Below, piece by piece: positions 28,717 through 32,486 of a stretch of DNA of 35,461 nt; within the stretch, counting starts at the first letter, position 1; the number at the start of each line of letters is the position of its first letter. The DNA comes from Treponema sp. GTDB taxonomy: Bacteria > Spirochaetota > Spirochaetia > Treponematales > Treponemataceae. The position numbers were made by a program, and so were the translations under genes. A model generated the notes under the pieces. It did not search any database. It had not been told where the DNA came from and was given only the letters and a program-made list of their open reading frames with translations. The stretch spans positions 1 through 35,461 of the forward strand of contig NZ_JAILGZ010000035.1 of the NCBI RefSeq assembly GCF_024696245.1, given 5' to 3'.

Positions 28717-29604
28717 TTAATCAATTGGTAAATCAATTCCATCATATGGTTCAGATTCATGAAACTCTAGAATATCCTGAAGAGGTACATCAGAGTATTT
28801 ATAAATCTTTTTTTTGTAGTTTTCTTTGATGGCAAAATTATCAAGTTCAATTCTGCGTTGTTTTGATAATTCAAGAAAGTCAGTGCTTTGTTCTAATCCT
28901 AAATATCTTCGGTCAAGAATATTTGCTGCTATCCCTGTTGTTGCAGAACCTGAAAAAGGATCTAATATCCATGCATTAGGTTTTGTAGATGCAAGAATAA
29001 TCCTTGCTAATAAAGGAAGAGGTTTTTGTGTAGGATGTTTACCACAGGATTTTTCCCATTTAGCAATAGCAGGTAAACTCCATACATCTCGCATTTGAGT
29101 TCCGCCATTTATTGATTTCATTAAATCATAATTGAAATAGTGAGGTGTTCGTTTTTCTTTTCTTGCCCAGATAATAAATTCTGTTGAATGAGTGAAAAAT
29201 CTACATGAAAGATTTGGAGGAGGATTAGTTTTTGCCCAAGTTATGACGTTGAGAATTCTGAAGTTTAACTCGTTTAGCATTTGTGCTACTGAAAAAATAT
29301 TGTGGTAAGTGCCTGAAATCCAGATAGTTCCATTTTTTTTGAGCTTATCCCTGCAAAGAGAAATCCATTGACGATTAAAGTCATTATCTTTTTCAAATCC
29401 TTTAGATTTATCCCAGTCGCCTTTATTTACACTAACTTGTCTTCCACTTTGAACCGAGATCCCTCCATTTGATAAAAAATATGGAGGATCTGCAAAAATC
29501 ATATCAAATTCAAAATTGATATTTGGAAGTAATTCTAAGCAGTTACCTTGTGCGAGAGTAAAGTCAAAATTGTCTGATCGATACCATGGATGAATTGAGA
29601 TAAT
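28717..29604 (-). CDS. dpnA: DpnA-type adenine-N6 DNA methyltransferase (second GATC methylase), unusual start
   Basis: A beta-class DNA adenine methyltransferase: catalytic motif IV MIFADPPYFLSNGG comes first and SAM motif I DPFSGSATTG comes near the C-terminus (about 90 residues before the end). It closely matches M.DpnA, which methylates GATC including single-stranded DNA. The first ATG is at 29502, but family members have about 30 more residues before DMIFADPPY. The window encodes such residues in frame (FTLAQGNCLELLPNINFEF). This upstream stretch has no ATG, GTG or TTG, only ATT (29604, 29595) and ATC (29601) behind a G-rich ribosome binding site, and then reaches the stop codon of the upstream gene in the same frame. 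The exact start is therefore uncertain; I give the longest option. Confidence 0.85.
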   Translation of the reverse strand: MISIHPWYRSDNFDFTLAQGNCLELLPNINFEFDMIFADPPYFLSNGGISVQSGRQVSVNKGDWDKSKGFEKDNDFNRQWISLCRDKLKKNGTIWISGTYHNIFSVAQMLNELNFRILNVITWAKTNPPPNLSCRFFTHSTEFIIWARKEKRTPHYFNYDLMKSINGGTQMRDVWSLPAIAKWEKSCGKHPTQKPLPLLARIILASTKPNAWILDPFSGSATTGIAANILDRRYLGLEQSTDFLELSKQRRIELDNFAIKENYKKKIYKYSDVPLQDILEFHESEPYDGIDLPID

Positions 29605-29613
29605 TTCCCCCCT

Positions 29614-30720
29614 TTATTGAAGCTTGATAAATGAATGAGAATTAATACAAAATATTTTTATTTTTTCTTCATAAGACAAATCAACTTTTTTTCGCTTTAT
29701 ATTCCCAACTTCTGGAGAAATTAAGAATGCGCTTATTTGATAAAACTCTTCTTCACTTGTTATAGATTCAATCCAGTGTAAATATCTAACTACTTGGTTA
29801 TATGCTTTTGCTGTAGCGCCACTTTTATCTTTTTTCAATTCTATTATTACGTTTGGAATAGTTCCATTTTTTATTGGGTTTTTTAAGCTGTATAAACAAA
29901 TGTCAGCTCTATCCATATTCATTGGCTTAAATGGGCAGATTGGAACTTGTCGACAAAGAATATAATCATCTGTAAGAAAATCAGAAAATGGTTTTAATGA
30001 AGATAGAATTGTAAACTCTAATTGAGCCTCATTTACTAAATCATCTGTTACATTAACTAGACCTTCCTGAAAAAGAGTTTCACTTCCATTTTTGATTATT
30101 TTTTCGCAATTAAAATAATCGATTTTATTTTCAGATTTCAATATTAATGATTTTAATTCTTTTACTTCACCTGGGGTTAATGTGCAAAATCCTAATCCCT
30201 GCATACTGTTTGATGGTAGTGGATATGGATAAGTTTTTCCTAATTGGAAATATAAATCATCAGAAGTTATATATTTTCCTGTGTCATCTGTTTTTGTGAA
30301 TTGAAAAATAAAAGGTTGAGCTTTTTTAGAATCTTTTACCTTGAAGACCCCTGGAGTTTCTGTCGCTTCATAACGAGGTGATTCATCCCAAAATAAATTT
30401 GCACTTGTCTTTCTTCCTAATGGACTATTTAATCCATTAATATAAAAAGAGCCAATTTCTTTGTTTCCATAAATTTTTCCTCCGTAATAAATTTTTCTCT
30501 TTATGAAAAAAAAGACATCAGTTCCTTCGCGACTACATGCATAATCTGCTAAGACAGAAAAATGTCGACTCTGTGGAGAAATTTTATCGTTATTTATTGG
30601 TTTCATACGAAAAATATATAACCCTCTATTTAGATATAACTTAAGAGATTCTTCATCATACAGAGCAATAAACAAACCTCCAGAAATATGTTCATTAGAA
30701 GTAAAATTAAAAAAGAACAT
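29614..30720 (-). CDS. NucS-like PD-(D/E)XK nuclease inside the DpnII operon
   Basis: A 368-residue protein I cannot name. The C-terminal region resembles the NucS/EndoMS catalytic domain: E231 and E235 in EAQLEF, D273 in RADICLY, then E294 and K296 in VIIELKK, and Q309 in NQVVRYLHW, i.e. a D-x20-E-x-K nuclease site with the QxxxY helix. The N-terminal half (GGLFIALYDEESL, then GTDVFFFIKRKIYYGGKIYG) is strand-rich and looks PUA/EVE-like, a fold used to read modified bases; this part is only a guess. Its ATG overlaps the DpnII stop as TAATG, and dpnA follows, so it is a true operon member. Standard DpnII operons have no such gene. It may cut modified or mismatched GATC DNA. Confidence 0.72.
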   Translation of the reverse strand: MFFFNFTSNEHISGGLFIALYDEESLKLYLNRGLYIFRMKPINNDKISPQSRHFSVLADYACSREGTDVFFFIKRKIYYGGKIYGNKEIGSFYINGLNSPLGRKTSANLFWDESPRYEATETPGVFKVKDSKKAQPFIFQFTKTDDTGKYITSDDLYFQLGKTYPYPLPSNSMQGLGFCTLTPGEVKELKSLILKSENKIDYFNCEKIIKNGSETLFQEGLVNVTDDLVNEAQLEFTILSSLKPFSDFLTDDYILCRQVPICPFKPMNMDRADICLYSLKNPIKNGTIPNVIIELKKDKSGATAKAYNQVVRYLHWIESITSEEEFYQISAFLISPEVGNIKRKKVDLSYEEKIKIFCINSHSFIKLQ

Positions 30721-31583
30721 TATTTAAATACCTCATTCATTACATCATTTTGCATATCGTTGATACTATAAATATCATCAAGAACATCAAAAGTTTCTTC
30801 AAGATTACTAGCAGCTGATTTCCATCCCGCACCATCTGTAAACCAGACGAACTTTGCACCTTTTACATTTTTCATTTCAGTCGCAATTGTTTTATAACTA
30901 CGGGCTGTTTCATTAAGTTTTGAACCACCACTTCCATAGAAATTTGTTTCAATAAGATAGATACATTTATCAGTCTTTACAACGAAGTCCCAGCGTTTTT
31001 CCATTTTGCCTTGATTTGAAACTGCAGATAAATCTATATTCCATTTGCGGGAAACTTCCGAAATATACATTTCTTTGAAATAATTAATTTCCTTTTTAAA
31101 ACCTGCTTTTTGAATATAACTTTCAACCAGATCTTCCATTTGATGACCGCCTCTATTTTTACGTCCATTTGAATCGAGACCCGTTTCAACGCCTGTTACA
31201 TAGTCATATAAATTGTTGATGATATGATTTGATAGTAAATTAAATAAACCTGTTTTTTCCATAAAGGTTTTATAATCTTCTAATGTATTTTCTTTTTTAT
31301 TAAAATTATAAGTTTTTACGTTTCCATTTTCACCGGCATATATTTCATATTCTCGGACTGCCAATAAAATAGGAATACACTTCAATGTTTCGGGATATTT
31401 AGTTATTAGATTTTCAAAATCGACTTTTATATTTTTTGAGCCTATTAAAGTGTTTAGAATATTTAATTCAATTTTTATTGAATCGACATTTTTGTACACT
31501 TTATTAAAATCAATATAATATCCATAATCAGCGATACTACATTTAAATTTAGCAATCCAAGTTTTAAAATTTCTTTTATTCAT
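30720..31583 (-). CDS. dpnB: DpnII-type restriction endonuclease (GATC)
   Basis: A 287-residue type II endonuclease very similar in length and sequence pattern to DpnII of Streptococcus (about 288 residues). It should cut unmethylated GATC. Shared landmarks are YYIDFNKVYKNVDSIK near the N-terminus, NTLIGSKNI, VTGVETGLDSNGRKNRGG (about residues 145-162), and KCIYLIETNFYGSGGSKLNE (about 205-225), with the PD-(D/E)XK-like catalytic E in IETN. It also carries a late WFTDGAGWKSA motif. It starts 9 bases after the Dam-type methylase stop. The partner methylases flank it on both sides of the operon. Confidence 0.95.
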   Translation of the reverse strand: MNKRNFKTWIAKFKCSIADYGYYIDFNKVYKNVDSIKIELNILNTLIGSKNIKVDFENLITKYPETLKCIPILLAVREYEIYAGENGNVKTYNFNKKENTLEDYKTFMEKTGLFNLLSNHIINNLYDYVTGVETGLDSNGRKNRGGHQMEDLVESYIQKAGFKKEINYFKEMYISEVSRKWNIDLSAVSNQGKMEKRWDFVVKTDKCIYLIETNFYGSGGSKLNETARSYKTIATEMKNVKGAKFVWFTDGAGWKSAASNLEETFDVLDDIYSINDMQNDVMNEVFK

Positions 31584-31592
31584 TAATTACTC

Positions 31593-32486
31593 CTAAAATA
31601 TACTTACTATATTACTGATTATTAATTCATTTATTGGACCGCGTTTTCTTGCATTACTATTTACCATTCTTGAGGCGTGGACTCTTTCTATATGAAAATT
31701 AGCATATAAATTATCAAAGAAATTATCTTCTGTATTTGCATTTCTAGGATCTGAATTACTAACTACAATATGAGCTCCTTTATTAGCCATTTCTGTAACA
31801 AAATTACCAAGCTGAATTTGCTGAGTATCTGAAAACTCGTTTTCACTGTAAGATGTGAAAGATGAAGTCGCTGTTAGAGGTCTGTATGGAGGGTCTATAT
31901 AAACAAATGTATTTTTATCAATAAATTCTCTACAATAGGAATAATCTCCAACGTGCATTTGCACATTTTGCAAAAGGCGACTACATTCGCGTATGTTGTT
32001 TTCATCGCAAAGTAGAGGATTTGTAGCATTATTGAATGGAACATTAAATAGGCCTTTTTTATTTACTCTATAAAGACCATTAAAACAAGTCTTATTGAGA
32101 TAAATAAAAAGAGCTGCTTTTTCTAAATTTTTATCACGTACGTTTTCTAAAATAAACTGATTGTAAGATGCTCGTTTAGCTAGATATAATTCTTTGCGAG
32201 CTTCTGGAACAGTTATCTGATATTCTTCCTGGAGTTCATATAATCGATTTATAAGATTGTCAGGAGTATTTTTGATGTTTTGATATAAGTTTATTAATTC
32301 AGAATTAATGTCATTAATTAAGATTTCGTGAGGGGGATTTGGTTGTTGTAAAACATCAAATAGAACTGCACCACCACCAACAAAAGGTTCGCAATACTTG
32401 GTAAATGTATTTGGATAATGATGTCTCAGCTCTGATAAAAGTTGAGTTTTTCCACCTACCCATTTTATAAAAGGTTTTGCTGCCAT
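31593..32486 (-). CDS. dpnM: Dam/DpnM-type adenine-N6 DNA methyltransferase (GATC)
   Basis: A 297-residue alpha-class D12 methyltransferase. SAM-binding motifs KWVGGKTQLLSEL (about residues 8-20) and EPFVGGGAVLFDV (about 33-45) lie in the N-terminus, and the catalytic motif VYIDPPYRPL is at about 195-204. The alpha order (motif I before IV) is the same as in Dam and DpnM. It methylates adenine in GATC and protects the host from the adjacent endonuclease. It is the first gene of the operon. A GGGG sits about 12 bases before the ATG, a long gap, so the ribosome binding site is weak. Confidence 0.95.
   Translation of the reverse strand: MAAKPFIKWVGGKTQLLSELRHHYPNTFTKYCEPFVGGGAVLFDVLQQPNPPHEILINDINSELINLYQNIKNTPDNLINRLYELQEEYQITVPEARKELYLAKRASYNQFILENVRDKNLEKAALFIYLNKTCFNGLYRVNKKGLFNVPFNNATNPLLCDENNIRECSRLLQNVQMHVGDYSYCREFIDKNTFVYIDPPYRPLTATSSFTSYSENEFSDTQQIQLGNFVTEMANKGAHIVVSNSDPRNANTEDNFFDNLYANFHIERVHASRMVNSNARKRGPINELIISNIVSIF

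Follow-up and report, generated by a model that had tools for sequence, protein, structure and literature searches.

The pneumococcal DpnII cassette consists of three genes (PMC3573125), and the DpnII restriction-modification (R-M) operon of the Treponema sp. genome studied here has four. What is the fourth, a nuclease-like gene that we call gene X, doing there? We analysed a stretch of 35,461 nucleotides (the window), which is an entire contig from a genome with a completeness of about 99%, and compared its operon with those of other genomes.

The operon and the start of dpnA

The four genes follow the order dpnM-dpnII-X-dpnA, all on the minus strand (Table 1). A DpnII endonuclease, a Dam-family methylase and a DpnA-like methylase lie in one operon, as expected for a DpnII-type R-M system. 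The ATG of X and the stop of dpnII share one base (TAATG, base 30720), and the X stop lies 12 bases from the dpnA start. The ORF coordinates, this overlap and the co-directional neighbours confirmed an earlier note on this DNA, which had placed X in the operon between dpnII and dpnA. Among three X relatives at 66-68% identity, dN was low and dS high or saturated. This pattern indicates purifying selection and excludes a chance ORF; judged from the substitutions, X is a selected gene.

Table 1. Features of the DpnII operon in the window
Feature	Position	Strand	Evidence or remark
dpnM-like Dam-family adenine methyltransferase	31593..32486	-	PF02086 4e-60; TIGR00571 3.4e-86; first operon gene
Predicted DpnII restriction endonuclease (GATC)	30720..31583	-	PF04556 1.6e-106
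Gene X, 368 aa, cargo of the dpnII-dpnA slot; probable N-terminal EVE/PUA-like part and predicted C-terminal NucS/EndoMS-like PD-(D/E)XK nuclease	29614..30720	-	
X N-terminal part, residues ~14-195, probable EVE/PUA-like reader	30136..30681	-	placed as the EVE match in the G066 relative
X nuclease domain (predicted), residues 225-368	29617..30048	-	invariant residues, predicted element order, Foldseek
X active-site codons (predicted)	D273 29902-29904; E294 29839-29841; K296 29833-29835; Q309 29794-29796	-	
Exchangeable dpnII-dpnA slot	29602..30719	-	blastn of whole operons and census
Shine-Dalgarno-like AGGGGGG ahead of the dpnA ATC	29607..29613	-	
dpnA-like single-strand-DNA-type adenine methylase, 294 aa, ATC start	28717..29601	-	PF01555 5.7e-56; start from comparison with 36 other Treponema dpnA

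The dpnA gene of the window has no ATG, GTG or TTG start, and its frame opens at ATC (29599-29601). It is not alone in this: the initiator is ATT or ATC in 18 of 37 Treponema dpnA genes (AUU at 16 loci, AUC in the window and in L056). The dpnA protein sequence is conserved upstream of the first ATG, so the region must be translated. In one of the 18 genes (L041), a TTG also lies in frame shortly before the initiator. A purine-rich Shine-Dalgarno stretch lies ahead of every one of the 18 ATT/ATC-started genes vs. one of the 16 ATG-started ones left after removing near-duplicates (Fisher p 9e-9, uncorrected for relatedness). From the sequence context, the combination looks like a means of keeping translation of the single-strand methylase weak and tuned.

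An exchangeable slot between dpnII and dpnA

DpnII was detected in 36 of the 196 genomes of the genus Treponema and in 33 of 393 Bacteroidales genomes. For the census of the dpnII-dpnA gap, we extracted the loci of 38 Treponema and 22 Bacteroidales DpnII operons and classified their genes. Most Treponema operons, and about half of those from Bacteroidales, had genes in the gap, and these genes ran in the direction of the operon. Thus, X is not the unique extra gene that the earlier note had supposed, but one of many slot cargoes. The classic three-gene restriction system seems to act as a chassis on which second weapons can be exchanged.

The 60 operons held about a dozen unrelated genes in this position, or nothing. 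The occupants included a 182-aa family without Pfam match (C0; 10 loci in both phyla), the C2/C4 superfamily (families joined by hhalign at 98% and 2e-14), PDDEXK_11, a Mrr_cat-like nuclease of 156 aa, DUF6996/6997 (a type II endonuclease model in PADLOC), a second DpnII, AIPR (three loci, one with HNH_2), DndB/DGQHR proteins, a 445-aa protein and an 80-aa protein (Zn80). The set is mostly nucleases and abortive-infection-type proteins; "defence slot" is therefore a majority reading, with the C0, C2/C4, 445-aa and Zn80 occupants having no assigned function. In one operon (L047), the gap spans 670 bases without an ORF of at least 75 aa and perhaps holds decayed cargo. Genes of the C2 family also occur outside the operon, downstream of dpnA and on the opposite strand (L107 and L109).

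DpnII proteins that are 95-99% identical carry different cargo: the content differed in 70 of the 78 pairs with a DpnII identity of at least 90% and in 28 of the 32 pairs with at least 95%, these pairs not being independent of each other. On the DpnII tree, cargo switches between neighbouring branches. When the window was compared with its 12 nearest operons by blastn, similarity ended at most about 16 bases from the dpnII stop, mostly at the stop itself, and returned at +1114 to +1137, where +1119 is the dpnA start. In operons with an empty slot, dpnA overlaps dpnII (L068, L070, L071) or lies a few bases from it (L063). The dpnII-dpnA slot is exchangeable and its borders are precise almost to the base; cargo with such clean borders could be exchanged by recombination in the conserved flanking genes.

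A second exchangeable junction is the gap between dpnM and dpnII, which was occupied in five operons (L005, L042, L044, L059 and L066). It holds X in L005, a broken Mrr_cat-like gene in L059, a C2 relative in L066 and, in L044, a 179-aa protein that looks by eye like an ADP-ribosyltransferase; a 101-aa frame is also among the contents of this set.

Other DpnII loci are decorated in different ways. Two DpnM proteins carry C-terminal extensions that resemble ParB/DGQHR (L046, L067), and a third DpnM carries an extension that resembles an ADP-ribosyltransferase (L018), all as judged by eye. In Fusobacterium vincentii (L009, 4874-6434), DpnM and DpnII are followed by a Mrr_cat nuclease and a different N6/N4 methylase that replaces dpnA. 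A scaffold labelled as human gut phage (L011, MT838632.1) has the order dpnA-Mrr_cat-dpnII-TIR-AIPR, with AIPR in two pieces.

Domains and relatives of gene X

The C-terminal half of X is, on its predicted structure, a PD-(D/E)XK nuclease whose closest match is EndoMS/NucS. The model places D...ExK on an alpha-beta-beta-beta-alpha-beta core (helix 231-246, strands 253-258, 273-278 and 291-295, helix 304-320, strand 330-335), with pLDDT of about 33 to 89 over the core elements and the highest values in residues 300-368. It comes from an AlphaFold run with three relatives, in which full-length X reached pLDDT 43 and was usable for the C-terminal domain only. The Foldseek search proposed in the earlier note returned PD-(D/E)XK enzymes, with EndoMS (5gke) on top (E 7.9e-5, probability 0.89). 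The active site that it had read from the letters (D273, E294-x-K296, Q309) was unchanged in an alignment of five full-length relatives, as was Y313. On VIA-align, NucS (2vld), EcoT38I and Avs3 tied at Z 6.0, so "NucS-like" is a fold-level label and not family membership.

In line with this, profile libraries assigned X to no curated family. The NucS model of NCBIfam (NF003270) scored E 0.079 and 12 bits against a cut-off of 216, which leaves X outside the EndoMS/NucS family, and NucS_C gave no match in Pfam up to E 1. HSDR_N_2 was the sole Pfam trace (7.8e-4) and NucS the sole NCBIfam trace, both below cut-off. PADLOC and PHROGs had no match for X, and sequence searches of the PDB returned chance matches only.

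The N-terminal half, from which the earlier note had guessed a PUA/EVE-like base reader, probably is such a reader, judging from the relative in G066. There, Pfam detects EVE (6.2e-5, 23.5 bits vs. a curated cut-off of 23) next to a nuclease domain homologous to that of X, in the position and layout that correspond to the N-terminal half of X. The whole-length alignment of the X family with this protein (E 5e-9) is driven by the nuclease part. The proposal stands by this relative; X itself gave no such direct match, as EVE (PF01878) had no Pfam match in X or its relatives in DpnII and MutH/Sau3AI operons, and we withheld a fold assignment from an AlphaFold model of the N-terminal half alone (three relatives, pLDDT 33).

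Where do relatives of X occur? A Bacteroidales MAG (L002) has X (68% identical) in the same order as the window, dpnM-dpnII-X-dpnA, and a contig of the IMG/VR viral collection (L005; 66% identical) has dpnM-X-dpnII-dpnA. X is thus found in three DpnII operons of different origin and at two positions, as an embedded accessory gene conserved within an R-M unit. It is also rare: one of the 38 Treponema and one of the 22 Bacteroidales DpnII operons carry it, and no further full-length X was found in 296 Spirochaetota and 393 Bacteroidales genomes (totals that include the two carriers). Except for L005, scans of plasmid, phage and most viral collections gave no close relative. A weak Spirochaetota match (G155) was set aside because its frame is broken or spurious.

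A phylum-wide profile search added a distant relative of full length in G915, whose nuclease part matched at 3e-7 and whose N-terminal part matched separately in that frame. From this relative we reached a protein on a Haladaptatus plasmid (1e-18, with 95% of the query covered). Both adjoin an endonuclease of the MutH/Sau3AI family (PF02976, 2.4e-37 and 1.4e-14) and m5C methylases. Relatives of X are therefore linked to two kinds of restriction operon, and the neighbourhood search that the earlier note had proposed found them within restriction operons in L002, L005, G915 and Haladaptatus. The G915 copy may be broken or badly read, because both its methylase and the 5' end of its X relative contain frameshifts. 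Seven other plasmid MutH/Sau3AI loci that we inspected lacked an X relative, so the Sau3AI link consists of two cases only.

DpnII and Sau3AI both cut GATC and leave identical GATC ends. Thus, all five full-length relatives probably lie in GATC systems, and GATC restriction may be their common factor. Looser relatives share the nuclease part alone, or the layout. In G1206 (L168, 584-2904), an EVE-like/NucS-like protein lies directly behind a lone DNA methylase with a 4-base overlap, and from its sequence this pair is a candidate two-gene restriction system. The G066 relative, with the layout of X, has no restriction gene nearby; the architecture is therefore not confined to R-M.

Proposed role and comparison with known systems

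We favour, with some confidence, that X is a second DNA endonuclease of the restriction type embedded in the operon, one of the rotating accessory genes of the dpnII-dpnA slot and a second line behind DpnII. The EVE/PUA-like part would read DNA and the NucS/EndoMS-type part would cut it. Co-expressed with DpnII from one operon, X would attack invading DNA that has escaped DpnII or been left incomplete by it. It would probably act in a GATC context, as suggested by the shared DpnII and MutH/Sau3AI partners, and be blocked on the methylated GATC of the host; its target could be unmethylated GATC or the GATC ends left by DpnII or Sau3AI. The earlier note had raised the possibility that X recognises modified or hemimethylated GATC. 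We rejected a dependence on m6A-GATC or hemimethylated GATC on logical grounds: DpnM makes both forms across the host genome and would turn the host into a target.

Three other roles deserve weighing. X could be a guard-type suicide nuclease that, like PrrC for EcoprrI, is restrained by DpnII or the methylases, is freed once DpnII has been disabled by an anti-restriction protein of a phage or by DNA modification, and then kills the cell. PrrC is a known precedent of an embedded guard (PMC12707154), X would be in fixed co-expression with DpnII, AIPR (tied to abortive infection in the literature) is among the other slot occupants, and TIR and AIPR adjoin the DpnII gene in L011. However, X has the look of a DNA nuclease that includes a reader part, and its relatives occur with complete R-M sets or a lone methylase, which fits direct restriction. 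We regard the guard role as unlikely, though ahead of the other two.

A repair or processing enzyme of the NucS/EndoMS or Vsr kind, acting on mismatches or on broken GATC ends from restriction and not as a defence effector, seems more unlikely still. The nearest fold, EndoMS/NucS, is a mismatch endonuclease, the same ends are left by DpnII and Sau3AI, and two X relatives partner m5C methylases, where deamination of m5C gives G:T mismatches. But DpnII operons have m6A methylases only and need no deamination partner, the slot in other genomes holds unrelated nucleases and AIPR rather than repair genes, and the likeness to NucS is limited to the catalytic core, with profile scores below cut-off (NucS 0.079; NucS_C 0.011). 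The mismatched GATC and repair coupling that the earlier note had also raised gained no direct support. Last in our ranking, and improbable, is a type IV-like role, in which X would depend on modification and cleave phage DNA that carries modified bases in or close to GATC and is refractory to DpnII. Such an enzyme would complement DpnII, and EVE/PUA-like parts are known modification readers, with EVE-HNH enzymes that cut modified DNA (PMC7641849, PMC7897488). However, the reader part of X is only probable, and m6A-GATC cannot be the trigger in a host whose own GATC carries m6A; another modification would be required, and none is indicated.

Beyond the favoured role of X as a second endonuclease, a wider model can be sketched, which we put forward only tentatively and consider rather doubtful. 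The DpnII operon of Treponema and Bacteroidales would be a standing chassis with two slots for rotating second-line effectors, including a GATC-context EVE-NucS-type nuclease shared with Sau3AI-type systems, and loss of the first line to phage counter-measures would trigger the second.

The usual picture of type II R-M is a fixed set of methylase and nuclease. If the DpnII operon does carry a slot for swappable effectors, each occupant would be a candidate new defence gene whose partner and co-expression are already known; in the libraries searched, the families of C0, C2/C4 and X bear no functional name. Operons that differ in the slot alone would also allow a direct test of an old question, namely whether embedded genes guard restriction or supplement it. 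The open-access literature that we searched contained no account of an exchangeable slot in DpnII operons, and absence there is not proof. Accessory genes embedded in R-M operons are already known, with PrrC, AIPR and the hypothesis of immunity-suicide coupling (PMC12707154, PMC3506569, PMC2292703).

Among known systems, the Streptococcus pneumoniae DpnII cassette (dpnM-dpnA-dpnB) likewise unites a Dam-type methylase, DpnA and the DpnII endonuclease in one operon (PMC3573125). However, its order is methylase-DpnA-endonuclease, whereas the Treponema operon has the endonuclease second, an extra gene in an exchangeable slot and a dpnA that starts at ATC. EndoMS/NucS (5gke, 2vld) shares with X the PD-(D/E)XK core with D, ExK and Q and is the best fold match of the model, but the N-terminal half of X matched the NucS N-terminal domain by no test here, and X sits in an R-M operon. 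The MutH/Sau3AI systems, such as pneumococcal DpnIII, likewise cut at GATC, and X relatives occur in two of them; these systems differ from the window operon in the endonuclease family and in their m5C methylases. Finally, PrrC in EcoprrI and AIPR in R-M operons are, like X, accessory genes embedded within an R-M operon (PMC12707154, PMC3506569). PrrC is an anticodon nuclease of a type I system, whereas X is a predicted DNA nuclease of a type II system and occupies a slot whose content is exchanged.
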